Translations under genes and position numbers: made by a program | Assembly: GCA_023150875.1 (NCBI GenBank) | Contig: JAKLKC010000008.1 | Coordinates: forward strand, 1 to 64,000 | DNA from: Myxococcota bacterium | GTDB taxonomy: Bacteria; Myxococcota_A; UBA796; UBA9615; JAKLKC01 | DNA: 64,000 nucleotides | Direction: 5' to 3' | The notes under the pieces: generated by a model | The model's input: the letters and a program-made list of their open reading frames with translations, nothing else | The model's database searches: none | Told to the model about the DNA's origin: nothing | Shown: piece after piece, positions 18,868 to 54,025 of the stretch | Numbering within the stretch: position 1 is the first letter of the stretch | Layout of the letters: each line of letters opens with the position of its first letter

Positions 18868-20042
18868 CCTCCAGCCCCGGGACCCCGCCCTCCCTCCGCG
18901 CCCCGGCGACGGTGTCGCCGGTGAGGGTGGTCCCGGTCTCCATCGACGACCGCCGCGCCAAGGAGCGGTTCATCCGGTTCCCCTGGTCGATCTATCCCAA
19001 GGGATCCCCGTGGTGCCCTCCCCTGTTCATGGACCGGCGGGACTTCCTGAACCCGGCGAAGAACCCCTTCTTCGACCACGCCTGCGTCCAGCTCTTCCTG
19101 GCCGAGAGGGGGGGCGAGATCGTGGGCCGGATCGCCGCCTGCGAGGACCGCCGCGGCAACGCCCACTGGGGCTCCAAGGCCGTCAACTTCGGCTTCTTCG
19201 AGTGCGTCGACGACGACGCCGTCGCCGGGGAGCTGCTGGAGGCCGCCGCCGACTGGGGGCGCGCCCGGGGCTTGGACCGTATGGTGGGCCCCCTCTCGTT
19301 CAACACCAACCACGAGGCGGGTCTGCTGGTGGAGGGCTTCGACGAGCCTCCCGCCATCCAGATGCCCTACAACCCGCCGTACTACCGGGGGCTCCTGGAA
19401 CGCCAGGGGTTCGAGAAGGAGATGGACCTCTACGCCTGGTGGCTCTCCGCGACCGCGGATCCCCCGCAGCTCCCCCGGCTCCAGCGCCTGGCCGAGAAGA
19501 TCCGCGAGAAGGCGGGCATCGCCGTCCGCAACATCCGCCTCAAGGACTGGGACGCCGAGGTCCAGCGGGTCCAGGAGGTCTACAACGACGCCTGGGACCA
19601 GAACTGGAACTTCGTGCCGTTCACCGACGCGGAGTTCCGGCACACCGCCAAGGACCTCCGGATGGTGGTGAAGGAGGACCTGGCGTACATCGCCGAGCAC
19701 CAGGGGCGCCCCGTGGCCTTTTCCCTCACCATCCTCGACGCCAACCAGGCGATCCGCCACGCCGACGGCCGCCTCTTCCCCTTCGGGATCCTCAGGCTGC
19801 TGTGGCACCTGCGTCGCATCGACCGCCTGCGGCTGATCGCCCTGGGGATCCGACACGGTTACCGCCGCCGGGGGATCGAGTCGGTCTTCTACCTGGAGAC
19901 CTTCGCCGCCGCCCGCCGCCTGGGTTACAGGGGCGGAGAGATCGGCTGGACCCTGGAGAGCAACGACCTCATCAATCGGGCCATCGAGATGATGGGCGGC
20001 AGGAAGACCAAGACCTACCGCGCCTACGTCCGGCCGACGTGA
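18864..20042 (+). CDS. GNAT-fold N-acyltransferase, candidate bacterial ceramide synthase
   Basis: 392-residue protein of the large GNAT-like family that is often left hypothetical. Distinctive features are FPWSIYPKGSPWCPPLF, FLAERGGEIVGRIAA, NFGFFECVDDD, the YNPPYY segment and a C-terminal acyl-CoA-binding-type motif (IRHGYRRRGIES). In Caulobacter the ceramide synthase (bCerS) is a GNAT-type acyltransferase encoded with spt and a ceramide reductase; the same three-gene order and 4-base overlap here support the same role, N-acylation of 3-keto-sphinganine. The identification is from gene context and family type, not from a direct alignment. Confidence 0.75.
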   Translation: MTSSPGTPPSLRAPATVSPVRVVPVSIDDRRAKERFIRFPWSIYPKGSPWCPPLFMDRRDFLNPAKNPFFDHACVQLFLAERGGEIVGRIAACEDRRGNAHWGSKAVNFGFFECVDDDAVAGELLEAAADWGRARGLDRMVGPLSFNTNHEAGLLVEGFDEPPAIQMPYNPPYYRGLLERQGFEKEMDLYAWWLSATADPPQLPRLQRLAEKIREKAGIAVRNIRLKDWDAEVQRVQEVYNDAWDQNWNFVPFTDAEFRHTAKDLRMVVKEDLAYIAEHQGRPVAFSLTILDANQAIRHADGRLFPFGILRLLWHLRRIDRLRLIALGIRHGYRRRGIESVFYLETFAAARRLGYRGGEIGWTLESNDLINRAIEMMGGRKTKTYRAYVRPT

Positions 20043-20049
20043 CCCGAAG

Positions 20050-21045
20050 ATGGCCAAGGTCCTGGTCACCGGCGCCAACGGGTTCGTAGGGGGTCACCTT
20101 GCCGCGGAGCTCGTCTCCCGCGGGCATCGGGTGGCGGCGCTGGTGCGGCGGACCAGCGACGTCTCGGCCCTGGACGGGCTGGCCGTGGAGCTTCGCTCCG
20201 GCGACGTGTGCGATCCCGCGTCGCTGCGGGCGGCGATGGCGGGGATCGAACTCGTCTTCCACGTGGCGGGCCTGACCAAGGCCCGGGTGCCGGAGGACTT
20301 CGTCCGGGTCAACCGCGACGGCGCGCGGAACGTGGCCCGGGCGGCGGTGGAGGCCGGGGTGAGGCGGCTGGTCCACGTCAGCTCCATCGCCGCCGCGGGC
20401 CCCTCGGACGCCAACCGCCCCCGGACCGAGGCGGAGCCTGCTTCCCCGGTCAGCCTGTACGGGCTGAGCAAGAGGGCGGGGGAGCAGGAGGTCGAGGCCG
20501 TCGCCGCCGCGCTGGACGTGGTGATCGTCCGTCCCCCCATCGTCTACGGCCCCCGGGACCTCGACGTGCTGGAGGTCGTCCGGGCCGCCGCCCGCGGGCT
20601 CGTCGTCCAGCTCGGTCGAGCGCCCAAGCCCTACAGCGTGATCCACGTCCGAGACCTCGCCCGGGGACTGATCCTCGCCGCCGAGCGCGGCAGCCCGGTG
20701 GGGGACGGTCCACCGGGCCAGGGGATCTACTTCCTCACCGACGGCCGCCGGCATACGTGGGCCGAGCTGGGGCACGCGGCGGCCCGGGCCGTGGGGCGGC
20801 GGGCGAGGGTGATCGTGCTCCCCCTGGAGGTGGGGTGGCTGGCGGGGGTCCTCTCCGAGTGGCTGGGCCGGCTGCGGAACCGCGCGCCGATCCTCAACCG
20901 GGACAAGATCCGCGAGGCACGGCAGGCGGGCTGGTGGTTCTCCACCGAGCGGGCCCGCGCCGAGATCGGCTACGAGCCGACGATGACCCTCGACGCGGGC
21001 ATGGCCGACGCCGTCGCCTGGGCCCGCGCCGCCGGGAAGCTCTGA
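20050..21045 (+). CDS. Extended SDR, candidate ceramide reductase
   Basis: 331-residue NAD(P)-dependent epimerase/dehydratase-fold reductase: VLVTGANGFVGGH nucleotide motif, HVAGLTK, VHVSSIAAAG and the YGLSK catalytic Tyr-Lys pair. It starts seven bases after the GNAT gene. In Caulobacter the third enzyme of ceramide synthesis (CerR) is an SDR of this class, reducing the 3-keto group after N-acylation. The same operon position suggests the same function. A sugar-epimerase or sterol-dehydrogenase-type substrate cannot be excluded from sequence alone. Confidence 0.75.
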   Translation: MAKVLVTGANGFVGGHLAAELVSRGHRVAALVRRTSDVSALDGLAVELRSGDVCDPASLRAAMAGIELVFHVAGLTKARVPEDFVRVNRDGARNVARAAVEAGVRRLVHVSSIAAAGPSDANRPRTEAEPASPVSLYGLSKRAGEQEVEAVAAALDVVIVRPPIVYGPRDLDVLEVVRAAARGLVVQLGRAPKPYSVIHVRDLARGLILAAERGSPVGDGPPGQGIYFLTDGRRHTWAELGHAAARAVGRRARVIVLPLEVGWLAGVLSEWLGRLRNRAPILNRDKIREARQAGWWFSTERARAEIGYEPTMTLDAGMADAVAWARAAGKL

Positions 21046-38600: not shown

Positions 38601-41273
38601 GTGGTCGCGGCCCGAAGCCCGACCCCCTGGGGGCTCCCGCTGCTCCTTCCCCTCGATGGAATCGACCCGTCGGACGAGCCCCGGGTCGGCGGAAAGGCCG
38701 CCCACCTGGCCCGCCTCGTGCGGGCTGGACTCCCCGTCCCCCCCGGCTTCGTGATCCCCACCGACGCCTTCGAGCGGTTCGTCGAGGGGGCCGGGGGAGC
38801 GGGGGCGGCGGGCCCGTCGATCCCCTTCCCCGCCGGCCTCGACGGCGCCATCCAGGAGGCCGTCCGTGCCCTCCCCGGCGGCGAGGAGACCGCCCTGGCC
38901 GTGCGCTCCTCGGCGGTGGGCGAGGACGCCGCCAGCCGCTCCTTCGCGGGGCAGTACGACTCCTTCTTGGGCGTCCGGGGCTTGGCCGCCCTCCTGGAGG
39001 CGGTGCGGGCGACCTGGGATTCGTGGTTCTCCGAGAGGGCACGCCTCTACCGCTCCATGGCGACGGCGGACGGGGGGACCCTCCTCCCCTCGGGCATGGC
39101 GGTGCTGGTCCAGGTCATGGTCCCCGCCCGGGCCGCCGGCGTGCTCTTCACCGTCAACCCCCAGACCGGCGCCCCGGACGAGATGGCGGTCGAGGCGGTC
39201 CTGGGCCTGGGGAGCGGCCTCGCCGCGGGGACCCAGGAGGCCGACCTCGTCATCGTCCGGCGTCCCCCCTGGCCCCGCCGGGCCGGCGTGCTCCGGGTGA
39301 AGAGCCGCCGGCTGGCCTCCAAGGGGGAGCGGCAGGTGGTCGCCCCCGGGGGCGGCCTCCGGGTCGAGGCCGTCCCCGAGCCCCGGGCCAGCGCCCCCGC
39401 CCTGCCCGACGGCGACCTGCTGGACCTCTGCCGGCTGGCCCTTCGGGTCGAGGAGCTGGCGGGAGGGCCCCAGGACATGGAGTGGGCCCAGGACGAGACC
39501 GGCCGCCTCCACCTGCTCCAGGCCCGCCCCGTCACCGCCGCGCCGGTCGCGGCCCGGGCCGCCTCCGGGGGCCCTGCCCCGGGCGGCAGCGGCCCGCCTC
39601 GGGACGGGGTGGTCTACACCCTCCGGTTCTCGGGGGAGCGCTGGAGCGAGCCGGTCACCCCCCTCTCGTGGTCCATCCTGGAGCCGGTCCTGAACTGGTT
39701 CATCCGCTGGGAGGACGCCGAGCGGCGCTTCCTCCACGGCGCGCCCCCCATCCGCCTCTACCGGGGACTGCCCTACTTCAACATCTCCCTCTTCCGGCGC
39801 CTGGTCTTCCGGCTCCCGGGGTGGGCGCCGCCCCACTTCCTGCTGGAGTTCTTCCCCGAGGAGGAGCGGGAGGAGCTGCTGGCGCGCCCGGCCTACGCCC
39901 CCGACGCCAAGGTGCTGGCGTCGGTCTTCACCCAGGTCTTCCGGGAGCGCCGCCACGAGCGCTACGCCTGGAACCTGCTGCGGAACCACGAGGAGTGGGA
40001 GCGCTTCCAGCCCCAGCTCCAGCGCCGGACGCGGGCGATCCGCCTGGACGCCGCCACCCCGGGCGAGGCGCTCCGCGAGGTGGACGCCGCCCGCCAGCTC
40101 GTGCTGGAGTACGTGCGGATCCACCTGCTGAGCCTCCTCTTCGCCAACCTCTTCTACCAGGCGCTCACGGCGATGCTGGAGGGCTTCGCCCCGGGGGACG
40201 CGGCCTCCGCGGCGGCGGCGCTGACCACCGAGCCGTCGGGCAACCGCACGGTCCTGTGCAACAAGGCCCTGTGGACCCTCGCCGCCGAGGCCGCGGCCTC
40301 CCCCGCCCTCGCCGCGGCCCTCTCGGCCCCCGATCCCCCCACCGTCGAGGCCCTGCGTTCGCTCCCGGGCGGCGAGGGGTTCGTCCGGGCGCTGGAGGAG
40401 TTCCTCGGCACTTACGGCCACCGCGCCGCGACCTCGTGGGAGGTCTTCTCTCCGCGCTGGGCCGACGCCCCCGGCCAGGTCCTGGGCCTGGTGGGCGCCT
40501 ACCTCCGGGGGGGGATCCGCACCGATCCCTTCATCCAGGAGGACCGCCAGATCCAGGAGCGGGACCGCCTGCACCGCGAGGTGCGGCGCCGGCTGACTCC
40601 CCACCCCCTGCGCCGTCTCGCCTTCGACCAGGTGCTGTTCCTGGCCCGGCGCTACACGGTCCTCCGGGAGAACCAGCGCTTCGCCTACGACGAGCTGCTC
40701 CACCGCCTCCAGCGGGTGCTGGTGCGCGTGGGGGACCTCCTGCACGCCGAGGGCGCCCTCCCCTCTCCGGACCTGCTCCCCTTTCTCACCCTGGACGAGG
40801 TCCGGGAGCTGTCCTCGACCCCGCCGGCCCGCCGCGCGGACCTCGCGGCCCTGGCCCGGACGCGCCGCGCGCAGCGGGAGCTGGACCGCCGCGCCTTCCA
40901 CCCCGACTTCCTCTACGGGGACGAGGAGCCCGTCCCCCCCGCGCCACCGGAGTCGAGCCGCCTCGCGGGGCTCGGGATCAGCCCCGGGCGCGTCACCGGG
41001 CCGGTGCGGGTCCTGCGGGGCCTGGACGAGGTGGGCAAGCTCCGGCGGGGGGACATCCTGGTGACCCGCGCCACCGATCCGGGCTGGACCCCCCTCTTCC
41101 TCACCGCCGGTGGGCTGGTGATGGAGCTCGGCTCCCTGCTCTCCCACGGCGCCGTGGTGGCCCGGGAGTACCGCCTGCCCGCGGTGGTGAACGTCTCCGG
41201 CGCCACCCACTTCCTGCGGGACGGCCAGGAGGTGACGGTGGACGGCGCCACCGGCCTGGTCCACGTCCACTGA
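38601..41273 (+). CDS. PEP-synthase/rifampin-phosphotransferase-like dikinase
   Basis: About 890 residues. The N-terminal ATP-grasp half matches pyruvate-phosphate dikinase/PEP synthase (VGGKAAHLARLVRAGLPVPPGF split here as VGGKAAHL and GLPVPPGF; ALAVRSSAVGEDAASRSFAG; MEWAQDETGRLHLLQARPV). The C-terminal phosphohistidine domain has LGISPGRVTGPV and the catalytic His in LSHGAVVAREYRLPAVV. The middle is helical and unlike the TIM barrel of PPDK, so the three-part layout resembles rifampin phosphotransferase and relatives that phosphorylate small molecules. Substrate unknown. The exact start is uncertain. Confidence 0.82.
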   Translation: MVAARSPTPWGLPLLLPLDGIDPSDEPRVGGKAAHLARLVRAGLPVPPGFVIPTDAFERFVEGAGGAGAAGPSIPFPAGLDGAIQEAVRALPGGEETALAVRSSAVGEDAASRSFAGQYDSFLGVRGLAALLEAVRATWDSWFSERARLYRSMATADGGTLLPSGMAVLVQVMVPARAAGVLFTVNPQTGAPDEMAVEAVLGLGSGLAAGTQEADLVIVRRPPWPRRAGVLRVKSRRLASKGERQVVAPGGGLRVEAVPEPRASAPALPDGDLLDLCRLALRVEELAGGPQDMEWAQDETGRLHLLQARPVTAAPVAARAASGGPAPGGSGPPRDGVVYTLRFSGERWSEPVTPLSWSILEPVLNWFIRWEDAERRFLHGAPPIRLYRGLPYFNISLFRRLVFRLPGWAPPHFLLEFFPEEEREELLARPAYAPDAKVLASVFTQVFRERRHERYAWNLLRNHEEWERFQPQLQRRTRAIRLDAATPGEALREVDAARQLVLEYVRIHLLSLLFANLFYQALTAMLEGFAPGDAASAAAALTTEPSGNRTVLCNKALWTLAAEAAASPALAAALSAPDPPTVEALRSLPGGEGFVRALEEFLGTYGHRAATSWEVFSPRWADAPGQVLGLVGAYLRGGIRTDPFIQEDRQIQERDRLHREVRRRLTPHPLRRLAFDQVLFLARRYTVLRENQRFAYDELLHRLQRVLVRVGDLLHAEGALPSPDLLPFLTLDEVRELSSTPPARRADLAALARTRRAQRELDRRAFHPDFLYGDEEPVPPAPPESSRLAGLGISPGRVTGPVRVLRGLDEVGKLRRGDILVTRATDPGWTPLFLTAGGLVMELGSLLSHGAVVAREYRLPAVVNVSGATHFLRDGQEVTVDGATGLVHVH

Positions 41274-41293: not shown

Positions 41294-43759
41294 TCAGTCG
41301 AAGACCAGGTCCTCGTCGCCGCGGGGCAGGAGCTTGTTGTTTTCGTAGGTGTAAGTGAGGATCCCCCGCAGCAGCACGATCTCGTCGTCCACCTGGGGGT
41401 CGTGGGGGTAGTCCCAGATCCCGTCGTCGACCCGCAGGTCCCCCGTGACCAGGAACTCGTCGTAGTCGTTGCCCGATCCGCCCTCGCCGTCGGGGTTGTC
41501 GTCGATGACCACGACCCGACCGTCGACCTCCACCAGGTGGGACTCCAGGACCTCCGCCAAGGCGCCCCCCGTGGCGATCTCCTCGGAGTCCACCAGCACG
41601 GGCGCCACGTCGCCGATGGTGCCGGTCACCGTCCAGCTCGCGTCGTCGATCTCCGATTGGCCGTAGTACTCCACGTAGGTCCCCTCCACGTCCACCACGT
41701 CGCCCACCTCCACCCCCGAGGGGGCGCCGTACTCGTACACGTGGATGGCGCCGAAGTCCTCCACCTCGGGGTCGCGGACCCAGAAGCCGCCCTCGGCGCC
41801 GTCGGCGACCACCGCCGTCACCACTGCGCCCGTCACCCGCACCGGCGTCCCCTCGGGGACGTGGTCCTCGCGGGAGGGATCGCGGATCATCGGGATCGTC
41901 ACCGTGCAGCCCGTCCCACCGGGATTGGGCTGGTCGGGGCAGGGATCGCAGGCGTCCCCCTTGCCGTCGCTGTCGGCGTCCTCCTGCCCCGGGTTGGCGT
42001 CCGTGGGGCAGTTGTCGTCGGGGTCGTGGACCCCATCGCCGTCGGGGTCGTCGGGGCTGCCGGACTCGCACTCGGGATCGGGGTCCAGGGGGCAGGGATC
42101 GCAGGCGTCGCCGGCGCCGTCCCCGTCCAGGTCCCACTGCTCGGGGTCGTGGACGGCGGGGCACACGTCCTCGGCGTCCGCCACCCCGTCCCGGTCGGCG
42201 TCCCCCTCGGCGAGGCCCCCGGAGGGCTCGCAGGCGAAGACCTCCTCGGGGGCGCCGCACTCGAACAGCGCGGAGAGCTGGTAGGCGTAGGCGACGGGGT
42301 CGTCGGGAGTGATCCCCTGGGCGGACGCGGCGTCGTCGAGGGCCCCCTGGAGGGCGGCGCGGATCTCGTCCAGGGTCTCGCCGTAGTCCCCCGAGGCGTC
42401 CCTCTTCACGCAGATCTCCCGCTCCTCCCCGCAGACGTCCAGGGTCTCGCACCAGGCCGTCGCCTCCAGGCCGGCGACGAGGTCCGGGGCGCCGTAGAGC
42501 ACGTCCCCCCCCACCACCGTCATCCACACGTCCTGGGCCTCGGAGCGGAACAGGGAGCGGTAAGGGTCCGCCGGATCCCCCGCCACCACCGCCAGGTCGG
42601 CGAGGTAGCCCTCCTCCAGCCGGCCGGCGAGGTGCTCCAGGCCCACGGCGACGGCGGCGTTGCGGGTCACCATCTCCAGCATCTCGACGTCGGTGAACGC
42701 GCCCCCCAGGAACCCCTCGTTGTACCGCGCGGCGCAGGCCAGCTCGTCCCTCGCGTTCATCGACCCCGAAGGCACCCAGTCGGTGCCCACGGCCACCCGG
42801 AGCCCGACGTTCCTGGCGATGGCCACGGGGCTGGTGCGCCCGTACAGGTCGAGGTTGCTCCGGGGGGACCACACCAGGGTCATGCCGGCGGCGGCCATCT
42901 CGCCGAGCTGGCCGGTGTCGAAGTCGGTGCCGTGGATCACCGCGACGCCCGGGTCCACCAGGCCCAGGTCCCGCAGGGTGTCGAACTCCCCCCGCACCGA
43001 TCCCAGGATGCCCTCGCCGACGTGGGGGAGGTAGGCGTCGAGCCCGCCGGACTCCAGGTCCGAGAGGATGTCGGCCGCCTCGCCGTCGTCCACGTTGGAG
43101 ATCCGCCCCGAGTACATGTCGGCGTCGTAGCCCTGGATCCCGGTGGCGTGCTCCCCCTCGTCCAGGTTCCGCACCATCGTCTCCAGGCAGGCGTCGGTGC
43201 TGCCCATCGCCGCGGTGACCCCGCCCATCAGCTCCCGGGCCTCGGCCCACTTCATCGCCCGGCAGCGGTCCGAGGAGAGGGCGTCGTAGGCGTCGCTGAA
43301 GTCCCAGTAGTCCGGATCCCCCTGCCAGTCGTAGCGGTCCTCGTACAGCCCGTCGTGCCGGAAGCGCGGCAGGGTGTTGTACTGCATGTGGTTGTGGGGA
43401 TCGACGAGGCCCGGCAGCACCAGGCCCTCGGTGCACACCACCGTCGCGTCCACCGCCCCGGGCCGCTCGTGGCAGTCGGTGCCGACGCAGGTGATGAGCC
43501 CGGTGCTCTTCGAGAACGCCACCCAGCCGTCCGGGACCACCGGATCCGGCAGCAGCAGCGTCCCCCGGAGCATCACCTCGTCCCCGCCACCCAGGGCGGG
43601 CTCGCACGGGGGCAGCGTGGGGGTGGTGTCGTCGTCGGGGGCGGTGTCGTCGTCGGCGGTGTCGTCGGCGTCGTCGTCGCCCGCCTCCGGCCCGGTGCAC
43701 GCCGCGGGGACGAGGAGGCAGGCGGCCAGCAACGGCGCCGCGACGGGGAGGCGGGGCAT
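41294..43759 (-). CDS. Amidohydrolase lipoprotein with thrombospondin-type-3 repeats
   Basis: 821-residue lipoprotein (lipobox VPAAC) with an Asp-rich tether of four DDD clusters. Residues ~60-460 are a metal-dependent amidohydrolase: DPHNHMQ first ligand pair, YLPHVGEG and VIHGTDF further His sites, AVGTDWVPSG the acidic ligand. Residues ~530-620 hold calcium-binding type-3 repeats (DADRDGVADAEDVCP, DGDGVHDPDDNCP, DSDGKGDACDPCP). The C-terminal ~180 residues are a beta-rich OB-fold-like domain (GVEVGDVVDVEGTY). The substrate may be a cyclic amide or amino-heterocycle; not determined. It probably acts at the cell surface. Confidence 0.85.
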   Translation of the reverse strand: MPRLPVAAPLLAACLLVPAACTGPEAGDDDADDTADDDTAPDDDTTPTLPPCEPALGGGDEVMLRGTLLLPDPVVPDGWVAFSKSTGLITCVGTDCHERPGAVDATVVCTEGLVLPGLVDPHNHMQYNTLPRFRHDGLYEDRYDWQGDPDYWDFSDAYDALSSDRCRAMKWAEARELMGGVTAAMGSTDACLETMVRNLDEGEHATGIQGYDADMYSGRISNVDDGEAADILSDLESGGLDAYLPHVGEGILGSVRGEFDTLRDLGLVDPGVAVIHGTDFDTGQLGEMAAAGMTLVWSPRSNLDLYGRTSPVAIARNVGLRVAVGTDWVPSGSMNARDELACAARYNEGFLGGAFTDVEMLEMVTRNAAVAVGLEHLAGRLEEGYLADLAVVAGDPADPYRSLFRSEAQDVWMTVVGGDVLYGAPDLVAGLEATAWCETLDVCGEEREICVKRDASGDYGETLDEIRAALQGALDDAASAQGITPDDPVAYAYQLSALFECGAPEEVFACEPSGGLAEGDADRDGVADAEDVCPAVHDPEQWDLDGDGAGDACDPCPLDPDPECESGSPDDPDGDGVHDPDDNCPTDANPGQEDADSDGKGDACDPCPDQPNPGGTGCTVTIPMIRDPSREDHVPEGTPVRVTGAVVTAVVADGAEGGFWVRDPEVEDFGAIHVYEYGAPSGVEVGDVVDVEGTYVEYYGQSEIDDASWTVTGTIGDVAPVLVDSEEIATGGALAEVLESHLVEVDGRVVVIDDNPDGEGGSGNDYDEFLVTGDLRVDDGIWDYPHDPQVDDEIVLLRGILTYTYENNKLLPRGDEDLVFD

Positions 43760-43783: not shown

Positions 43784-44563
43784 TCAGAGCCAGTCCTTGA
43801 ACTCCACGCCGAGCATGATGCCGCCGTCGGCGACGATGGTCTGGCCGACGATCCAGTCGGCGTCGGGGGTGCACAGGAACGCCACGATCCCGGCGAGGTC
43901 CTCGGGCATGCCCATGCGGCCCAGGGGGGACTTCTTGGTGCCGAAGTTCCACACCGCGTTCGGGTACTTGAACCAGGTCACCGCCCGGGTGTCCACCGGC
44001 CCGGCGCTGACGGTGTTGGCGCGGATCCCCTCCCGGGCGAGGTCGAAGGCGAGGTAGCGCACCAGCGCCTCCATCGCCGCCTTCGACGACCCGATGGCCG
44101 CGTACTCGCTGAAGCAGGTGAACGAGCCCACGCTGCTGATGGCGACGATGTGGCCGCCGCTCTTCTTGAGGAGGGGGTAGACCCCCTGGGAGAGCAGGAG
44201 CAGCGCGGTGACGTTGGTGTCGAAGGTCGCCTGCCAGGAGGCCCGGCCCATCCGCATGGTGGGGGCCATGGTGCCGAAGGCGGCGTTGTGCACCAGGATC
44301 CCGAGGTCGCCGACCTCCTTCTTGATCTCGGCGCAGAGGCGCTTGATCTCCTCGGGCTTCCGCATGTCGGCCTGGAAGGCCCACGCGCGCCGTCCGAAGC
44401 CCCGGACCTCGGCGGCCGCCTCTTCGGCGGCGGCGGCGTCCTGCTTGTAGTTGATGATGACGTCGGCGCCCTCCCGGGCCAGCCGCAGGGCGATGGCCTT
44501 GCCGATCCCCCGCGAGCCGCCGGTCACGAGGGCGATCTTCCCCGCCAGCCGTACAGAGTCCAC
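43784..44563 (-). CDS. FabL-like enoyl-ACP reductase (SDR)
   Basis: 259-residue SDR with TGGSRGIGKAIALRL cofactor loop and VHNAAFG. The catalytic Tyr and Lys are in YAAIGSSK, a Y-x6-K spacing typical of the enoyl reductases FabI/FabL, whereas ketoreductases such as FabG use Y-x3-K. The following MEALVRYLAFDL and QTIVADGG resemble Bacillus FabL. It would reduce the enoyl-ACP double bond. It is divergent from the large KAS/ACP/dehydratase cluster, sharing a 295-base regulatory gap. Confidence 0.82.
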   Translation of the reverse strand: MDSVRLAGKIALVTGGSRGIGKAIALRLAREGADVIINYKQDAAAAEEAAAEVRGFGRRAWAFQADMRKPEEIKRLCAEIKKEVGDLGILVHNAAFGTMAPTMRMGRASWQATFDTNVTALLLLSQGVYPLLKKSGGHIVAISSVGSFTCFSEYAAIGSSKAAMEALVRYLAFDLAREGIRANTVSAGPVDTRAVTWFKYPNAVWNFGTKKSPLGRMGMPEDLAGIVAFLCTPDADWIVGQTIVADGGIMLGVEFKDWL

Positions 44564-44668
44564 GTCGTGTCCTTTCGATGGGGTGCGGCGGGTGGACGCG
44601 CCGCGTCCCGGATGGCCCCGCCCGCTCCGCCGCCGCGCCCGGGGGAGACCGGGCCGGCGGAGCGGGCG

Positions 44669-44674
44669 ATTATA
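44669..44674 (-). promoter_or_regulatory. -10 element upstream of the FabL-like gene
   Basis: A perfect TATAAT on the minus strand, about 106 bases before the ATG. No good -35 is visible at standard spacing. The 44564-44858 gap otherwise contains only the divergent promoter at 44739. Confidence 0.4.
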
Positions 44675-44738
44675 GGGAAGGCGGAGCGCAATGGGGAGGC
44701 GTCCCGCGCGGGAGGCGCCCGGCGGGACCGACGCGCGC

Positions 44739-44767
44739 TTGCACCCCCCGGGGGGTTGTGGTATCTA
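44739..44767 (+). promoter_or_regulatory. Sigma-70-type promoter of the KAS/ACP cluster, with a C6G6 palindrome in the spacer
   Basis: TTGCAC, 17-base spacer and TATCTA. The spacer contains CCCCC followed by GGGGGG, part of a twelve-base perfect palindrome (44744-44755). The leader to the ATG is about 85 bases. Confidence 0.65.
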
Positions 44768-44858
44768 CGGCGCAACCTCGGGCCACCGTCGGTCTCGTGC
44801 CGCTGAAAACCCTTAGTAATCAAGAACTTATGTGGCGTGACGCCGCCGGGTCCGGTCG

Positions 44859-46148
44859 ATGAGGCGCAGGGTCGTCGTCACCGGCATGGGGGTGGTGTCC
44901 GCCATCGCGAGCGGCGTCCCCGCCTTCTGGGACCGCTTGGCCGCCGGCGTCACCGGCACGCGCCGTCTGACCCGCTTCGACCCGACGGGCTACCCCTCCC
45001 ACGTGGCGGCCGAGGTGCTGGATCCCCCTCCCGTCCCGGACCGGATCGGCCCGTACCGCGTGGCGGGGATCCCCTTCTCCCACGCCGTCGCCGCCGCCGT
45101 GGAGGCCCTCAGGGACGCGGGCCTGGACGCCTCGGCGGGGGACTGGCTGCCCCGGCGGGCGGTGTTCTTCTCGGGGGGGTGCACCGACCTCCTCCAGGAG
45201 ATCGTGGCCGCCACCGCCACCGGCGTCGCCGGTGCGGACCGGGAGCCCCGCGCGGTCCCGGTGGACGAGGTCGCCCGCGCCCTGGCCTCCTCCGCCGCGG
45301 TGGACGACCTCGACCTGTACAGCGAGAACAACCTCTCCCCCGCCCTGGCCTTCCTCGCGGGGGCCGGCCAGTGCCACACCCTGTCCTCCGCCTGCGCCGG
45401 GGGATCCCAGGCCATCGGCGACGCCTGGCGGCTGATCCTCCGCGGCGACGCCGACGTCGCCCTCGCCGGTGGGGGGGACAGCCTGATCACCCGCCAGATG
45501 ATCGCGGGCTTCTGCAACCTCACCGCCCTGTCCCGGCGCAACGACGATCCCGCCGGGGCCAGCCGCCCCTTCGACGCCGGGCGGGACGGCTTCGTGATGG
45601 GGGAGGGCGCGGGCTTCGTGGTGCTGGAGGAGTACGAGCACGCCCGGCGCCGGGGCGCGGCGATGCACGCCGAGCTCGCCGGGATCGGCTACTCCGGCGA
45701 CGCCCACCGCCTGACCGATCCCCGCGAGGACGGCTCGGGCATGCGCCTCTCCATGGAGAGGGCGCTCCAGGCCGCGGGCGCGGGGCCGGAAGACGTGATC
45801 TGGATCAACGCCCACGGCACCTCCACCGAGGCCAACGACGCCGCCGAGACCCGGGCCATCCACCTGGCCCTGGGCGAGGCCGCCCGGGGCGTCCCCGTCA
45901 GCTCCACCAAGTCGATGATCGGCCACCTGGTCCACGGCGCCGGGGCGGTGGAGACCGTCGCCTCGGTGATGGCCTTCGGCCGCCGGGTCGTGCACCCCAC
46001 CGCCAACTGGGCGGAGCGCGACCCCACCTGCGACCTCGACTACGTCCCCGGCGCCGCCCGCGACGTGACCCGCGCCGGGGTCGTCCTCAACAACTCATTC
46101 GGATTCGGCGGCCAGAACGTCACGCTGGCGCTGAGGCCGGCGGTCTGA
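44859..46148 (+). CDS. Beta-ketoacyl-ACP synthase (FabF type), intact
   Basis: 429-residue condensing enzyme with Cys in LSSACAGGSQ, His in INAHGTSTEAND and KSMIGHLVHGAG, all required catalytic residues present. NNSFGFGGQNVTL ends the protein. It is the paralogue of the KAS at 13980 and the first gene of a seven-gene cluster including the regulator downstream. Spacing to the ACP gene is about 50 bases. Confidence 0.93.
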   Translation: MRRRVVVTGMGVVSAIASGVPAFWDRLAAGVTGTRRLTRFDPTGYPSHVAAEVLDPPPVPDRIGPYRVAGIPFSHAVAAAVEALRDAGLDASAGDWLPRRAVFFSGGCTDLLQEIVAATATGVAGADREPRAVPVDEVARALASSAAVDDLDLYSENNLSPALAFLAGAGQCHTLSSACAGGSQAIGDAWRLILRGDADVALAGGGDSLITRQMIAGFCNLTALSRRNDDPAGASRPFDAGRDGFVMGEGAGFVVLEEYEHARRRGAAMHAELAGIGYSGDAHRLTDPREDGSGMRLSMERALQAAGAGPEDVIWINAHGTSTEANDAAETRAIHLALGEAARGVPVSSTKSMIGHLVHGAGAVETVASVMAFGRRVVHPTANWAERDPTCDLDYVPGAARDVTRAGVVLNNSFGFGGQNVTLALRPAV

Positions 46149-46198
46149 CCGCCCCGGCCGCCCCGACCCACCCGCCCCCGAGCACGGAGGTCCCCCCA

Positions 46199-46603
46199 AT
46201 GCCCGACCGCAACGAGATCCTCGGAACGCTGCGCACCATCATCGTCGACACCCGCGGCGTCGAGGAGGACGAGGTCACCCCCGAGGCCAACCTCTTCAGC
46301 GACCTCGGCCTCGAGTCCATCGACTTCCTCGAGATCTCCTTCCGAATGGAGGAGAGCTTCGGCTTCCCCTTCCCCACCGACGACCTGGGCAACCTCATGG
46401 GCGCGGTGAACGAGAACTCCACCCCCGACCAGGTCCGCGAGGTGCTGGGCAAGCTGCGCAGCGACTTCCACATCCCCGTGGACTTCGACAACCTCGACGG
46501 CCTCGAGCCCTACGAGCCCAAGAAGCTGCGCACCTCGGTGATGAACCTCTTCACCGTGAACGCGCTGGTCGACTTCGTCGCCGCCCGCGCCTCCGCCGCC
46601 TGA
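46199..46603 (+). CDS. Acyl carrier protein with a C-terminal extension
   Basis: 134-residue ACP. The phosphopantetheine Ser lies in FSDLGLESIDFLEI (LESI replaces the common DSL motif). Residues ~1-85 form the ACP four-helix bundle; ~50 further residues (from about SDFHIPVDF onward) end in a helix, FTVNALVDFVAAR, that is reminiscent of a second ACP helix IV. Normal ACPs are ~80 residues. The ATG at 46199 has GGAGG upstream. It presumably carries intermediates for the neighbouring KAS enzymes and dehydratase. Confidence 0.88.
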   Translation: MPDRNEILGTLRTIIVDTRGVEEDEVTPEANLFSDLGLESIDFLEISFRMEESFGFPFPTDDLGNLMGAVNENSTPDQVREVLGKLRSDFHIPVDFDNLDGLEPYEPKKLRTSVMNLFTVNALVDFVAARASAA

Positions 46604-46622
46604 GGGGCGGGACCGGGTCGGA

Positions 46623-47852
46623 ATGTCGCCTTCCCCCCCGAAGGAGGAGGTCCGCGCCGCCTCGCCCCGTCGCGTCGTGGTCGTGGGTCTGGGCGTCGTC
46701 GTCCCCGTGGGCGTCGGGGTCCCGGCCCTCCGAGAAGCGGCGGCGGGGGGGCGCGGCGGGATCTCCCGGCACCCCGAGGACCGCGCGGCGGCCCTGCCCC
46801 CCGGCGTGGGGGGACGGGTCCCGCGGGAGGCCCTGAAGGGGCGCTTCGACGGGAAGCTCCTGCGCCTGTCCACGATGTCCGAGGCGACCCTGCTGGGGGC
46901 CTGCGCCGCCAGCGAGGCCCTCGAAGGCGCCGGTCTCCGCCACTCCGACGGGCCCTTCCCCGAGGCCGGCGTGTACGTCGGCTCCTACATCTGTCCCCCC
47001 GCCTTCGACAAGCAGGCGAAGACCGCCCTGGCCCTGACGGAGCGGGACGCGGGATCCCCCCGGGGCTGGCGGCTGGACGACGAGCGCCTGCCCCATGCCC
47101 TGAAGTCCCAGTCCGCATTCGACTTCCTGAAGGCGCTGCCCAACATGATCGCCTCCCACGTCTCCATCCAGGGCCACCTGGCGGGGCCGGTGGGGACCTT
47201 CCTGGGCTCCGACGCCTCGGGCCTCCAGGCGGTGGGCGAGGCGTATCACGCGGTGCGCGCGGGCGAGGCGGAGGTCATGCTGGCGGGGGCGGCGTGGAGC
47301 CCCTTCCAGGAGGTCCTGCTGGCCTGGCTCCGGCGCCGGGGCCTCCTGGGGAGGGGGGACGGCGACCTCGGGACCGCCTCGCGGCCTGACTCCGAGGACG
47401 CGGACGGGATGATCCCCGGCGAGGGGGCCGCCTTCGTCGTCCTGGAGGAGCGGGAGAGGGCGCTGGGCCGGGGCGCCCGGGTCCACGGCGAGGTCGTGGG
47501 GTACTCCAGCCGCTTCGCCGTCCCCGGGGGCGAGTCGGACGTCCGGGCCCGGGCCGACGCCCTCGCCCGGGCGATCCCTCCGGGGCTCCCGGTGGAGGCG
47601 GTGGTGCTGGACGGGACGGCGGTGCCCTGGAACGACCGCGCCGACCGCGAGGCCGTGTCCCTGGCCTTCCCCCGGGGCCGTCCCCGGATCCTCCCCAGCG
47701 CCAGCGGTCCGTGCGGCTTCCTCGGGCCGGCGACCGGCCCCGTGAACCTGGTGGCGGCCCTGGCCGATCCCCGCCCGGGCCTTGCCCTGGCCTGCTCCTT
47801 CTCCGTCGACGGCACCCACGCCGTCGTCGCCTTCCAGAGCTCCGCCCCCTGA
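46623..47852 (+). CDS. Degenerate KAS homologue (chain-length-factor-like) 2
   Basis: 409-residue KAS-fold protein starting with VVVVGLGVVVPVG and keeping MIPGEGAAFVVLE. The nucleophile site after GP reads VGTFLGSDASGL, with Asp where Cys is expected, and neither the NAHGTGT nor the KxxxGH motif exists (LDGTAVPWND, PSASGPCGF). It resembles the degenerate KAS at 12674 (GSYI/GSYV, FDFLK/FEYLR, AVGEA/AVGRA). A partner role for the intact KAS enzymes is likely. Confidence 0.85.
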   Translation: MSPSPPKEEVRAASPRRVVVVGLGVVVPVGVGVPALREAAAGGRGGISRHPEDRAAALPPGVGGRVPREALKGRFDGKLLRLSTMSEATLLGACAASEALEGAGLRHSDGPFPEAGVYVGSYICPPAFDKQAKTALALTERDAGSPRGWRLDDERLPHALKSQSAFDFLKALPNMIASHVSIQGHLAGPVGTFLGSDASGLQAVGEAYHAVRAGEAEVMLAGAAWSPFQEVLLAWLRRRGLLGRGDGDLGTASRPDSEDADGMIPGEGAAFVVLEERERALGRGARVHGEVVGYSSRFAVPGGESDVRARADALARAIPPGLPVEAVVLDGTAVPWNDRADREAVSLAFPRGRPRILPSASGPCGFLGPATGPVNLVAALADPRPGLALACSFSVDGTHAVVAFQSSAP

Positions 47853-47874
47853 GGACCGGACGCCCAGGAGCCGA

Positions 47875-48351
47875 ATGCGCTACATCCTCATCGACCGCAT
47901 CGTCGAGATCGAGCCCGGCAAGAGGGCCAAGGGCTGGAAGAACGCCAGCCTCGGCGAGGACTACTTCCAGGACCACTTCCCGGGCTTCCCCGCGGTGCCG
48001 GGGGCGCTGATGATCGAGGCCATGGCCCAGCTCTCGGGGCTGCTGGTGATGACCTCCATCAACTACGAGAAGCTCTCGGTCCTGCTGGGGGTGAGCCGGG
48101 CGCGCTTCCGGGAGTTCGTCCGCCCCGGGGATCGGCTCGTGGTCGAAGCGGAGATCAAGAGCCTCCAGCCCTCGGCGGCGATGACGAAGTGCACGGTCCA
48201 CGTGGACGACAAGCTCGTCGCCGAGGCGGAGCTGATGATGGGGATCCAGCGCCCCCCCGGCATGTCCACGGAGTTCGTCCAGATGCTGGCCACCCGCTAC
48301 CGCATGCTGACCGGCGACACCAGCGCCGGCGACGTGGGGACGGAGGCCTGA
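47875..48351 (+). CDS. FabZ-like 3-hydroxyacyl-ACP dehydratase
   Basis: 158-residue hotdog-fold dehydratase. The catalytic His and Glu are in DHFPGFPAVPGALMIEAMAQ, the FabZ/FabA signature. It dehydrates 3-hydroxyacyl-ACP to the trans-2-enoyl form. It lies between a degenerate and an intact KAS gene; its stop is one base from the TTG of the next KAS. Confidence 0.92.
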   Translation: MRYILIDRIVEIEPGKRAKGWKNASLGEDYFQDHFPGFPAVPGALMIEAMAQLSGLLVMTSINYEKLSVLLGVSRARFREFVRPGDRLVVEAEIKSLQPSAAMTKCTVHVDDKLVAEAELMMGIQRPPGMSTEFVQMLATRYRMLTGDTSAGDVGTEA

Positions 48352-48352
48352 C

Positions 48353-49567
48353 TTGACCCGCCGGGGGGTGGTCGTCACCGGGATGGGGCTGATCGCCGCC
48401 ACCGGCTGCGGCGTCGAGGCCGCCCGGGAGGCCCTGCGGACCGGCCGCTCCGGCGTCGCGCCCATGGAGGACTTCGATCCCTCCCTCTGGCCGATGAACG
48501 AGGGCGCCGTCGCCCGGGACTTCCGCTCCGATCCCGCCTCCCCCGAGGACCGCTCCGTCCAGATGCTCCTCGCCGCCGCCGCCGAGGCGGTGGGGGACCT
48601 GCCCGCCTGGCTGGAAGCGGAGCCCCGGGAACGGGAGGGGCTGGGGATCTCCCTGGGCACCAGCCAGGGGGCGGTGCTCCAGGCGGCCTCCCTGCACCGC
48701 CGCTTCCTCCACCCCGAGGGCCTGCCCACCCCCGAGGACCGCGCCCGCTTCGCCGCCTACCGGCCCGGTTACGGGGCCGAGCGCCTCGCCCGCGAGGTGG
48801 GGGCCCGGGGTCCCGTCACCACCTTCGGGATGGTGTGCGTCAGCTCGGCGATGGCCCTCGTGGAGGGGGCGAGGTGGATCCGGGACGGCCTGTGCGACCG
48901 GGTCCTCGCGGGCGGCTTCGAGGCCTTCTCGCCCTTCGTGTTCACGGGTTTCCAGGTGATCGGCGCCCTGACCCGGAGCCGCTGCCGCCCCTTCGACCGG
49001 GAGAGGGACGGCACGGTGCTGGGGGAGGCGGCGGGCCTGCTGCTGCTGGAGTCCGAGGGGGCGGCCCGCCGGAGGGGGGCGCCGGTGTTCGCCCGGGTCC
49101 TGGGGGGAGGCCAGAACGCCGACGGGGTCCACATGACCGCCCCGGACCGCGACGGCCGGGGCCTGGAGGCCGCCGTGCGCGCCGCCTTCGACGACGCGGG
49201 GGTGGCCCCCGGGGACGTCGGCTACGTCAACGCCCACGGGACCGGCACCCCCTTCAACGACTCCATGGAGTGCGTGGTGTTCTCGCGGCTCTTCGAGGGG
49301 CGGCGCGTCCCCCCGGTCAGCTCGGTGAAGGGGATCTTCGGCCACACCCTGGGGGCGGCCGGCGCGGTGGACGCCATCGTGACCACCCTCGCCCTGGGCG
49401 GCGACCCCCTCCCCCCGACGGTCAACCACCAGGAGGCCGATCCCGGCCTGGACTTCGACTTCGTCCCCGATCCCGGGCGCCGTCACGGTCCCCTCCGGAT
49501 CGCCCTCTCCAGCAACGCCGCCATGGGGGGGAACAACACCGCGCTGCTGCTCGCCGAGCCGGGCTGA
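48353..49567 (+). CDS. Beta-ketoacyl-ACP synthase, intact, second of the cluster
   Basis: 404-residue KAS with VVVTGMGLIAATG, catalytic Cys in GMVCVSSAMAL, His in VNAHGTGTPFND and the VKGIFGHTLGAAG motif. LGEAAGLLLLE replaces the usual GEGAG sequence, a minor variant. TTG start directly after the FabZ-like stop. It is more divergent from the KAS at 44859 than that one is from the KAS at 13980, so the two intact enzymes here probably differ in substrate. Confidence 0.9.
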   Translation: MTRRGVVVTGMGLIAATGCGVEAAREALRTGRSGVAPMEDFDPSLWPMNEGAVARDFRSDPASPEDRSVQMLLAAAAEAVGDLPAWLEAEPREREGLGISLGTSQGAVLQAASLHRRFLHPEGLPTPEDRARFAAYRPGYGAERLAREVGARGPVTTFGMVCVSSAMALVEGARWIRDGLCDRVLAGGFEAFSPFVFTGFQVIGALTRSRCRPFDRERDGTVLGEAAGLLLLESEGAARRRGAPVFARVLGGGQNADGVHMTAPDRDGRGLEAAVRAAFDDAGVAPGDVGYVNAHGTGTPFNDSMECVVFSRLFEGRRVPPVSSVKGIFGHTLGAAGAVDAIVTTLALGGDPLPPTVNHQEADPGLDFDFVPDPGRRHGPLRIALSSNAAMGGNNTALLLAEPG

Positions 49568-49607
49568 TCCCGCGCCCGCCCTCCCTGCGCGCCCGTCCCT
49601 TCCGTCG

Positions 49608-49613
49608 TATCAT
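49608..49613 (+). promoter_or_regulatory. -10-like element just before a GTG start
   Basis: TATCAT ten bases upstream of the GTG at 49623, with no clear -35; an internal promoter producing a near-leaderless message is possible. Confidence 0.25.
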
Positions 49614-49622
49614 CTGCGCCGC

Positions 49623-50693
49623 GTGAACACCCCCAGCGGACATCCCCGGGACCTGGTGGTCACCGGGGCCGGCACCCTGCTCTGGTGCGGCGAGGACCTC
49701 GCCTCGCTTCGCCGTGCCCTGGCCGGCGACCCGGGGGACCTCCCCCGGGAGGAGGTCGCCCCCGGCGAGGTGCGCGGGGTGGGCCGGATCGGCCGCCTCC
49801 GGGCCCACCCGTTCTCGCGCCGCTACGAGCGCTTCGGGCAGATCGACACCTTCTCCCGCTACGCGTTCGTCGCCGCCGGGCACGCCCTGGACGCCGCCGG
49901 CCTCGTCCCCGGGAGCCCCGAGGCCACCGCCTCCGCGGTGGTCCTGGGCACGGCCTTCGGCTGCATGGAGGCCAACCAGCTCTTCGACCAGTTCACCGCC
50001 GACCCCCTGGTGGGGCTGCGGGGCGCGAGCCCCCTGCACTTCAAGGGCACGCTGCACAACGCCCCCGCGGGCTGGTGCGCCGTCGGCTGGCAGCTCCGGG
50101 GCCCCAACGCGACCTTCGTGTCCGGCCCCTCGGCGGGGATGGAGGCCATCGCCCTCGGGTGCCGCATGGTCCGCGAGGGGCGGGCTCCCCGGGCGCTGGT
50201 GGGCGGCGTGGAGCGCCTCCTGGCCCTCCAGCTCCTCATGCTCGAGGGCGGCGACGGGCTCCCCGGCCCCAGCGAGGGCGCGGCGATCCTGGTGGTGGAG
50301 GACGCCGACCGGGCCCGGGAGCGGGGCGCCCCTGCCCTCCTGAGGGTGCTGGGCACGGCCCGCGGCACCGCCCGGGGCGGGGTGGGTCCCCTGCTGGACC
50401 TGCTGGACGCCGCGGGCCTCTCCCCGTCCGACCTGGAGCGGGTCCTGCCCGGCCCCCCGGTGGACGGCACGCCCGTCGGTGGATCCGAGGCCGTGGCGAC
50501 CCTGGCCCTCCCCCGACACGTCGAGGTCGCCCGTCCCGAGGCCCGGATCGGCGATCCCCTGGCCGCCTGGGGCGCCTCGGCGGTGGCGAGCCTGCTGGCG
50601 GAGGCCGAAGGTCCCGTCCGCGTGGGCCCCACGGCGGTCCACCAGGCCGGTGCCGCCGGCGAGCACCACTGGATGCTGGTCCGCGGCCCCTGA
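49623..50693 (+). CDS. Degenerate KAS homologue 3
   Basis: 356-residue protein with the KAS N-terminus (LVVTGAGTLLWCG), VVLGTAFGCMEAN and SEGAAILVVEDADRA, but with Pro at the nucleophile position (GPNATFVSGPSAGMEAI) and no His motifs; the third quarter is shortened. It can be neither a condensing enzyme nor a decarboxylase by the usual mechanism. Last biosynthetic gene of the cluster. GTG start. Confidence 0.82.
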   Translation: MNTPSGHPRDLVVTGAGTLLWCGEDLASLRRALAGDPGDLPREEVAPGEVRGVGRIGRLRAHPFSRRYERFGQIDTFSRYAFVAAGHALDAAGLVPGSPEATASAVVLGTAFGCMEANQLFDQFTADPLVGLRGASPLHFKGTLHNAPAGWCAVGWQLRGPNATFVSGPSAGMEAIALGCRMVREGRAPRALVGGVERLLALQLLMLEGGDGLPGPSEGAAILVVEDADRARERGAPALLRVLGTARGTARGGVGPLLDLLDAAGLSPSDLERVLPGPPVDGTPVGGSEAVATLALPRHVEVARPEARIGDPLAAWGASAVASLLAEAEGPVRVGPTAVHQAGAAGEHHWMLVRGP

Positions 50694-50757: not shown

Positions 50758-50776
50758 ATGTATATAATTTGTACAT
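50758..50776 (+). promoter_or_regulatory. Palindromic operator over the -10 of the CarH-like gene
   Basis: Perfect inverted repeat ATGTA-N9-TACAT, with TATAAT (50763-50768) inside it; a weak -35 (TTCCAG, 50741-50746) is 16 bases upstream. The TGTA/TACA half-sites resemble operators of CarH/LitR B12-dependent regulators, implying autorepression. It lies 47 bases before the ATG. Confidence 0.65.
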
Positions 50777-50822
50777 ACTTGCGCCCGCGACGCGCCCCTG
50801 GCCCGCCGCGGGGGGAGGCGGC

Positions 50823-51776
50823 ATGTCGGCGCCCAGGGCGAGGCCCCTGTACGGGATCCACGAGGTGGCGGAGCGGACCGGCCTCTCGCCGGAGCTGATC
50901 CGGGCCTGGGAGCGCCGTTACGGTCTGCCCAGCCCGGAGCGGACCGCCGGTGGCTTCCGGCGCTACGACGACGACGACGTGGAGCGCCTGCGCCTGCTCC
51001 GGGCGCTGCGGGACCGGGGGGTCCGCATCGCCGAGCTGACGATGGCCCCCATCGCGGAGCTGCGACGCCTCCTGGACGTGGAGTACGGCGCGGGCTCCGC
51101 GGGCGCGGTGGGGGAGCGCGGCCCGTCCGCCGAGCCCGGCGCCCCCGCCCCCCGGCTGGTGGAGCGCCTGGTGAGGGCGGCCGTCACCTTCGACGTCGCC
51201 GAGCTGAGGGCCGGTCTCGGGGCGACCCTGGTGCTGATGCCCCCCCTGGTCGCGGCGGAGGAGGTGCTCGCGCCCTTCCTGGCCACCGTCGGCGACATGT
51301 GGGAGCGCCGCCAGCTCCCGGTGGCGGGGGAGCACCTGGTCACCGAGGCGGTGAGGGGAGCCCTCCACGCTTTGGGGCGCACCGGGATCCCCGCGGGCGG
51401 GCCCGGCGCCGGACGGGCGGTCCTGGCCTGCGGACCGGGCGACCAGCACGCGCTGGGGCTCCTCCTGTTCGGCCTGGTGCTGGGGGGCGAAGGCTGGGAC
51501 GTCGTCCACCTCGGGGTGGGCATGCCCGCGGGCGAGATCGCCGGCGCGATCCGGGCCCTGGACCCCGGCCTCGTGGGCCTGTCCTTCGTGGTCGAGGCCG
51601 GCGAGGACGAGGTCCGCCGGACGGTGGCGACCGCGGCGGGCGCCCTCCCCGAGGGGGCGCGGCTGCTGGTGGGGGGGCGCGCCATCGCCTCGCTTCACGG
51701 GGCGGTGCGGGGTGCCGGAGGCGTACCCTGCTCCACCCTGGGGGAGGGGCTGGAGCGGGCCACGGGCGCGGGCTGA
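50823..51776 (+). CDS. CarH/LitR-type MerR regulator with a B12-binding domain
   Basis: 317-residue photoregulator. The N-terminal MerR helix-turn-helix reads YGIHEVAERTGLSPELIRAW with the wing YGLPSPER. The linker leads to a four-helix bundle with the W-x9-EH signature of CarH (MWERRQLPVAGEHLV) and a Rossmann domain with the cobalamin motif DxHxxG (GDQHALGL). In CarH, adenosylcobalamin holds the tetramer on DNA in the dark and light releases it. A GGGGGAGG SD precedes the ATG. It follows the KAS cluster on the same strand. Confidence 0.9.
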   Translation: MSAPRARPLYGIHEVAERTGLSPELIRAWERRYGLPSPERTAGGFRRYDDDDVERLRLLRALRDRGVRIAELTMAPIAELRRLLDVEYGAGSAGAVGERGPSAEPGAPAPRLVERLVRAAVTFDVAELRAGLGATLVLMPPLVAAEEVLAPFLATVGDMWERRQLPVAGEHLVTEAVRGALHALGRTGIPAGGPGAGRAVLACGPGDQHALGLLLFGLVLGGEGWDVVHLGVGMPAGEIAGAIRALDPGLVGLSFVVEAGEDEVRRTVATAAGALPEGARLLVGGRAIASLHGAVRGAGGVPCSTLGEGLERATGAG

Positions 51777-53083: not shown

Positions 53084-54025
53084 CTACGCGTCCGCTCCGC
53101 CCCTCCCCCTCGGCCCCCCCACCGCCTCGACGAGGGCCTCGTCCAGCCGGGGATATCGGAAGGCGTATCCCAGGGCCTCGGCTCGGGCCGGGATCGCCCG
53201 CTGGCTCCCGAGCAGAACGCCGGCCATCTCGCCCAGGGCGAGGCGCAGGACCCAGCTGGGTGCGGGTGGGGCCAGGGCGGGGCGGCCCAGCGCCCGGGCG
53301 AGGGAGGCCGCCAGCTCCCGCTGGGTGACCGCCCCAGGGGCGACGGCGTGGATCGGGCCCTTCGCCCCGGGCTCGTCCAGGGCCAGGAGCACCAGGCCCA
53401 CGACGTCGTCGGCATGGATCCAGGGGACCCATTGCCTCCCCGAGCCCAACCGGCCCCCGAGCCCCAGACGGTAGGCCGGCAGCATCTTCGGCAGCGCCCC
53501 GCCCTCCCGGCCCAGCACCACCCCGATCCGGAGCGTGACCACCCGGATCCCCAGGTCCGAGGCGGCCCGGGCCTCCGCCTCCCAGGCGAGGCAGGTCTCC
53601 GCGAGGAAGTCCTGACCCGGGGGCGACTCCTCGGTGAGCGTCTCGTCTCCCCGGTCGCCGTAGTACCCCACGGCGGAGGCCGAGACCAGGACCGCCGGAG
53701 GCCGCTCCGCCCCCCGGAGCCCCTCCACCAGCGCCCGGGTCCCCAGCACCCGGCTGTCCAAGATCCTTGCCTTGCGCGCCTCGGTCCACCGCCCCCCGGC
53801 CACCGGCTCGCCGGCGAGGTGCACCACGGCGTCGCCCCCCTGGAGGCCGGCCGCGGGGAACGGCTCTCCGTGAGCGGGCGTAGCGAAGGCCTCCGCTGCC
53901 CCCGGCACGCTCCACCCCGCCCCCGTGGAACGGGACAGCACCCTCACCCGATCCCCCCTCGCCGCGAGGGCCGCGCACACCTTCCTCCCAAGGAACCCCG
54001 TCGCCCCTGTCACCAGAACGTCCAT
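53084..54025 (-). CDS. TIGR01777-type SDR epimerase
   Basis: 313-residue extended SDR of the YfcH/SDR39U1 group: VLVTGATGFLGRKV, VVHLAGEPVAGGRW, SASAVGYYGDRGDE and the C-terminal DUF1731-like domain (LALGEMAGVLLGSQR followed by YAFRYP). The SAVGYYG and WIPxxHxDDV-like WVPWIHADDV elements identify the family, whose substrate is unknown. Confidence 0.9.
   Translation of the reverse strand: MDVLVTGATGFLGRKVCAALAARGDRVRVLSRSTGAGWSVPGAAEAFATPAHGEPFPAAGLQGGDAVVHLAGEPVAGGRWTEARKARILDSRVLGTRALVEGLRGAERPPAVLVSASAVGYYGDRGDETLTEESPPGQDFLAETCLAWEAEARAASDLGIRVVTLRIGVVLGREGGALPKMLPAYRLGLGGRLGSGRQWVPWIHADDVVGLVLLALDEPGAKGPIHAVAPGAVTQRELAASLARALGRPALAPPAPSWVLRLALGEMAGVLLGSQRAIPARAEALGYAFRYPRLDEALVEAVGGPRGRGGADA

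Follow-up and report, generated by a model that had tools for sequence, protein, structure and literature searches.

Paired ketosynthases and a dedicated carrier protein in a putative lineage-specific type II fatty acid/polyketide synthase of an uncultured bacterial order

What is made by a compact set of fatty-acid-like genes in which two of the four KAS-fold proteins have lost their catalytic residues? The question is raised by positions 43784-50693 of a 64,000-nucleotide stretch of a Myxococcota genome, which we call the window. Two active and two degenerate KAS, a long ACP, a FabZ and a FabL-like reductase had been predicted there from the sequence, and all of them were found at these positions (Table 1). 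Pairs of a ketosynthase (KS) and a chain-length factor (CLF) are studied chiefly as secondary-metabolite machines. We analyzed whether the genes of the window form such pairs, where else the pairs occur, and which product they are likely to serve.

Gene content and catalytic residues of the locus

The reading frames of all seven genes are unbroken. The six genes on the plus strand, from KSA to KASP, are separated by only 1-55 bp and thus have an operon-like layout, and the SDR gene is divergent from them, with its start codon 295 bp from that of KSA. The catalytic positions were read off an alignment to Escherichia coli FabF. KSA and KSB retain Cys-His-Lys-His; at the same positions KASD carries Asp/Asp/Ser/Phe and KASP carries Pro/Asp/Glu/Asp. 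The original prediction had distinguished the Asp and Pro of these two proteins from a Ser at a first locus in the window, and the alignment agrees. Since the Ser-bearing protein lies beside an intact KS, the 64 kb hold three chain-length-factor-like proteins, in keeping with the predicted minimum of three.

The Asp at the nucleophile position of KASD was the same in all four relatives aligned, and the Pro of KASP was variable. KASD has in common with KAS3 and KAS4, two further partners described below, an insert of about 20 aa that follows the segment corresponding to FabF 108-116. The residues at the positions of FabF Ile108 and Phe400 gave no clear prediction of chain length, those at Ile108 being mixed. 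An AF2 model of KASD computed from six sequences had a mean pLDDT of 43 and was set aside.

An intact KS adjoining a triad-less KAS-fold partner, as in KS-CLF pairs, and a discrete ACP with a Ser attachment site, as in type II PKS and FAS, are thus both present. These features are also what the locus has in common with the type II PKS of Streptomyces, for which a pair encoded on a Streptomyces plasmid served as the reference. The differences are nevertheless clear: the reference CLF has a Gln at the nucleophile position, whereas the partners described here have Asp, Pro, Ser or Ala, and the system has up to four pairs and FabL-type reductases, with no cyclase or aromatase seen.

Table 1. Genes of the locus and of the related pair in the window
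Feature	Position	Strand	Characteristics
FabL-type enoyl-ACP reductase candidate, SDR	43784-44563	-	259 aa; Tyr-x6-Lys; divergent from operon
KSA, ketosynthase with full Cys-His-Lys-His	44859-46148	+	429 aa; orthologue in cluster of five relatives
ACP, dedicated	46199-46603	+	134 aa; GLESID site (Ser40); PF00550; insert near helix III
KASD, chain-length-factor-like partner of KSA	46623-47852	+	Cys replaced by Asp, both His gone
FabZ-type dehydratase	47875-48351	+	158 aa; NCBIfam FabZ, above cut-off
KSB, ketosynthase with full triad (TFGMVC)	48353-49567	+	404 aa; clade with E. coli aryl-polyene KS
KASP, chain-length-factor-like partner of KSB	49623-50693	+	Pro in the window; relatives have Asp or Ser
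Further KS of this family, third in the window	13980-15254	-	Intact; near KS3 and KS4 of relatives
Chain-length-factor-like partner of KS 13980-15254	12674-13990	-	Ser at nucleophile position; groups with KAS4

Distribution and conservation of the ketosynthase pairs

When 94 related genomes were searched with KASD, five of the same order gave matches at 44-46% identity, and the regions of the relatives were read by gene calling and by BLAST of six-frame ORFs. In G001, G003 and G004, the genes are arranged as SDR-TR-KSA-ACP-KASD-KSB-KASP-KS3-KAS3, followed by two SDRs on the opposite strand and then by KS4-KAS4, where TR is a thioester reductase (NAD_binding_4). G002 has the same genes, with no TR match seen; G005 has the same set spread over three contig fragments; and G006 shows the KS4/KAS4 end of the cluster. 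The cluster of the relatives comprises four KS with an intact triad and as many partners that lack it, and TR lies within the cluster in four of the five relatives. No FabZ was detected there at the position that the gene occupies in the window.

In the window genome, where PF00109 matches at 25 places, the loci of the system are 43784-50693, 12674-15254, C118 (a KS and a KAS) and C177. The last of these encodes a KS and a KAS and then, on the opposite strand, a TR and a second FabL-like SDR, and this TR, beside the KS/KAS pair, is the single strong match to TR in the genome. The locus is therefore part of a larger lineage-specific system, whose parts are split over several loci in the window genome.

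Within the genomes searched, this system is confined to a single order of uncultured bacteria. Scanning genome contigs with two KASD peptide patterns yielded five loci and no new lineage, and in a plasmid search with KASD the KAS proteins returned were all distant and covered less than 80% of the query. Matches to KASD at class level (31-36%) were set aside as FabF-type KS, with an ordinary ACP beside them in the short loci fetched. No description of the four-pair cluster was found in the open-access literature.

The phylogeny of 62 KAS-fold proteins gathered every triad-less protein on the same side of a branch with support of 99/98. Within this half, the partners form the separate groups KASD, KASP, KAS3 and KAS4, and the active proteins likewise form KSA, KSB, KS3 and KS4. 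The proteins of the window genome sit beside those of the relatives in matching KS and partner families. Those of C177 fall with KS3 and KAS3 in both halves of the tree; the partners of the 12674-15254 pair and of C118 fall with KAS4, and the KS of these two loci are near KS3 and KS4, at a place that is unsettled. The deep order of the most divergent partners is unsafe because of long branches. The KS and partner trees largely mirror one another.

The dN/dS ratios between G001 and G004, the only comparison used since dS was saturated for G002 and G003, were 0.22-0.27 for the four partners and 0.11-0.25 for the four KS. The partners are thus under purifying selection, and this, with the mirrored trees, argues for KS-CLF-type pairs and not for decaying genes. 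KSA and KASD, and likewise KSB and KASP, would then act as heterodimers. The idea that the triad-less KAS are decaying duplicates without function, to which the loss of every catalytic residue lends some color, is contradicted by the selection data and can practically be discarded: their frames are unbroken in the relatives, where the original prediction had named disruption as evidence against itself, the Asp of KASD is invariant, the insert of KASD, KAS3 and KAS4 is a common one, and each partner is associated with a specific KS gene.

Enoyl reductases and ketoreductases

The window SDR has FabL as its best match both in NCBIfam (263 bits, below the FabL equivalog cut-off of 328) and in the PDB (FabL-type reductase 3oic, 184 bits, with the next match at 137). 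The Tyr-x6-Lys spacing is present in this SDR, in SDR2 and in the SDR of C177, and the window SDR lacks Tyr-x3-Lys, so that the FabL-like spacing held and the saturating reductase that had been read from it is supported. In four relatives, the SDR of the cluster is 62-64% identical to the window protein. The latter differs from FabL in scoring below the cut-off and in occurring as a pair of paralogues in each genome, associated with KS-CLF loci: SDRs more than 50% identical to it number two per genome in five genomes, all of them in this system. In SDR3, Phe replaces the catalytic Tyr in the two relatives aligned.

Other enoyl reductases were sought in the window genome. E. coli FabI found nothing better than the SDRs of the system (29% identity), the FabK model gave only a 23-bit match, and FabV (PF12241, a model run with no positive control) gave none. 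G002 showed the same picture for the three families, and in G001, G003 and G004 the FabK model matched at 108-219 bits, short of its cut-off of 453 bits. The FabL-type SDRs are the only enoyl reductases that are recognizable by sequence in the window genome, and these candidate enzymes would act in general fatty acid synthesis as well. This latter task could instead fall to an enoyl reductase of an unrecognized kind, for example the OYE/FadH-like enzyme encoded in a neighboring cluster. A ketoreductase is missing from the locus, as predicted, and the FabG homologues of the window genome are encoded at C11 and C149.

Proposed pathway and alternative products

The conserved pairs, their presence across the order and the census of reductases together favor a type II synthase that is constitutive and controlled in the KS-CLF manner. 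We put at roughly 0.6 the probability that the system is a lineage-specific type II fatty acid/polyketide synthase, in which the locus provides two KS pairs and a dedicated carrier out of four KS-CLF-type pairs found order-wide, and which makes a mainly saturated, reductively released chain. The KS of each pair would condense malonyl-ACP with the acyl chain, the inactive partner would shape the chain pocket, and KS3/KAS3 and KS4/KAS4, encoded elsewhere in the window genome, may act in later or different rounds. Each round would be completed by a FabG from elsewhere, by FabZ and by the FabL-type reductase, and a mainly saturated chain would grow on the special ACP until the NAD_binding_4 thioester reductase frees it as an aldehyde or alcohol. 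The gene content points to a mainly saturated and probably long chain, and to its likely release by TR, which is unlinked to the locus in the window genome.

This product probably belongs to the core membrane lipids and not to the optional natural products. Because the FabL-type SDRs are the only enoyl reductases recognized, a role in core lipid metabolism, as a constitutive membrane or envelope lipid, seems the most likely. A stronger version, which we offer tentatively as a possibility facing somewhat adverse odds, is that this order has rebuilt its fatty acid synthesis on four heterodimers of the KS-CLF kind and on an ACP of its own, with the FabL-type enzymes as the sole enoyl-ACP reductases of the cell and the reductively released long-chain lipid as a core membrane component. 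The interest of the system lies in the joint presence, across an order, of several KS-CLF-type pairs, a dedicated ACP and the only recognizable enoyl reductases. If the lipid is a core one, primary lipid metabolism would have adopted polyketide-type chain-length control, and with the four paired paralogues one could test how successive KS-CLF pairs share chain growth.

The alternative that survives best, although we regard it as rather unlikely, is a very-long-chain system like that of AcpXL in Rhizobiales, where paired KAS would build the chain on a special ACP and the chain would be handed over, with no reductive release, to lipid A or some other acceptor. In the Rhizobiales cluster (acpXL-fabZ-fabF2-fabF1-adh-lpxXL), a specialized ACP, FabZ and two KAS are likewise found together, and the order acpXL-fabZ-fabF2-fabF1 of Agrobacterium, which makes a C28 chain (PMC11901934), resembles the ACP-KAS-FabZ-KS order of the window. 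The ACP fold may also point this way, through weak matches that speak for the specialized carrier of the favored synthase as well. The AF2 model of the ACP (mean pLDDT of 87) has helices at 4-19, 40-54, 60-69, 76-89, 107-115 and 120-133, which places the extra residues between helix II and the last helix and not in a tail. Foldseek matches to this model were weak, none with E < 0.001. The specialized RPA2022 (3lmo and 2kw2) nevertheless aligned over 127-132 columns, along most of the model (TM of 0.64-0.67 by target, with weak E values of about 0.01-0.02), as did 8f5i, listed by sequence as a specialized ACP; two AcpP-type chains matched in part along the length, and most other chains matched the core only, over about 60-90 columns. 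Against this reading, the sequence similarity between the ACP and RPA2022 stops at about residue 72, an LpxXL-type acyltransferase is not among the annotated neighbors of the cluster in the window and the relatives, and TR is typically a cluster gene in the relatives. The ACP insert is also longer and the pairs more numerous than in Rhizobiales.

Less probable still, and in our view unlikely, is a non-actinobacterial type II PKS that makes a pigment (a polyene or one resembling aryl polyenes) or some different secondary metabolite. The placement of KS clades, suggested as a check of the original prediction, groups KSB with one KS of the aryl polyene cluster of E. coli CFT073, and the two systems have KS-CLF logic and FabZ in common. 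However, a gene-for-gene match to the aryl polyene cluster, which would have spoken against the original prediction, is absent. No counterpart was noticed of the E. coli genes for an MMPL transporter, LolA-like protein, acyltransferase, thioesterase, acyl-CoA synthetase-like protein and methyltransferase, and among the annotated genes of the window and the relatives no MMPL transporter, LolA-like, acyltransferase, acyl-CoA synthetase-like or FabG-type ketoreductase gene was found beside the KS genes. Moreover, FabL-type reductases are conserved partners of the system in the relatives, and its uniformity across the order differs from the patchy occurrence of an accessory cluster.

The use of the special acyl chains for sphingolipids, which the original prediction had put forward as an example, found no support and appears improbable. 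It is suggested by Spt, CerS-like and CerR-like genes at 17674-21045, 2.4 kb from a KS/partner pair of the window, but an OPT transporter gene separates the two sets. The seven genomes of the order all have a close Spt (57-59% identity to that of the window), adjoined by CerS and CerR in the window genome and in G001-G005; the Spt locus of G006 (2,615 bases fetched) showed no CerS or CerR match. In the relatives, KS queries found no match in the Spt loci, which extend about 1.5 kb to each side of the gene.

A pathway to ladderane-like lipids or polyunsaturated hydrocarbons, of the type proposed in anammox bacteria and Desulfotalea, is very improbable: the FASII clusters of those bacteria also mix several KAS paralogues with some that lack Cys and His (Rattray 2009, PMC2649909), but the substitutions differ from those described here, the marker radical SAM and phytoene-desaturase-like genes were seen neither in the window operon nor in the cluster of the relatives, and the FabL-type reductases argue for saturation.

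The dedicated ACP of the favored synthase is 62-66% identical to its orthologues across its whole length. Of 379 genomes in the phylum, 7 matched its profile at an E-value limit of 1e-15; these 7 belong to this order and have a single copy each (in G006 as a partial match). As it occurs in no other genome searched in the phylum, this ACP is a possible marker for the uncultured lineage. A second long ACP (137 aa) is encoded in another KS cluster of the window genome (L042:1838-2251), so that length by itself does not set the ACP of this system apart.

Additional KS clusters and E2-like proteins

A separate KAS-fold cluster was found in the same genome, outside the window, encoding a long ACP (137 aa), an OYE/FadH-like flavoenzyme, FabZ and four KAS-fold proteins, two of which lack an intact triad. 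An additional KS cluster lies on contig C106, and a B12-binding radical SAM gene is found near it. In the window, an E2-like gene adjoins the KS/KAS pair at 12674-15254; on contig C177 of this genome, E2, E1 and E3 genes also precede a KS/KAS pair, and the two E2-like proteins share 27% identity over 226 columns.

Features in the window, in other loci of its genome (L042, L043) and in relatives of the same order (L049, L056)
Feature	Position	Remark
KAS-fold cluster	L042:1838-11037	G000:C169, ~79.8-89.0 kb
KS cluster	L043:6481-12132	G000:C106; two KS, two triad-less KAS, ACP
B12-binding radical SAM	L043:3701-5179	
E2 catalytic domain match	window 11729-12628	2-oxoacid dehydrogenase acyltransferase
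Spt, CerS-like, CerR-like	window 17674-21045	consecutive
Phosphoenolpyruvate synthase-like	window 38601-41273	PPDK_N, PEP-utilizers domains
Amidohydrolase	window 41294-43759	weak thrombospondin type 3 repeat match
CarH-like MerR/B12-binding regulator	window 50769-51776	immediately downstream of operon
TIGR01777 epimerase	window 53084-54025	
SDR3	L049:9912-10730; L056:1651-2472	G001, G004

Sphingolipid genes and SDRs in relatives

All three sphingolipid genes of the window were matched in the Spt loci of G001-G005, while the short Spt locus of G006 showed Spt and no match to CerS or CerR. In the KS cluster of the relatives G001 and G004, the catalytic Tyr that the other two SDRs retain is replaced by Phe in SDR3.

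Genes flanking the operon

The translated regulator carries W-x9-EH and DxHxxG, motifs associated with B12 binding in CarH. The cluster of the relatives showed no CarH. An epimerase gene follows further downstream. Upstream, RedH gave the top NCBIfam score for the phosphoenolpyruvate synthase-like protein, far under the cut-off. The amidohydrolase has an N-terminal stretch rich in Asp and Thr; several further predicted proteins in the window have comparable Asp-rich stretches close to their start.
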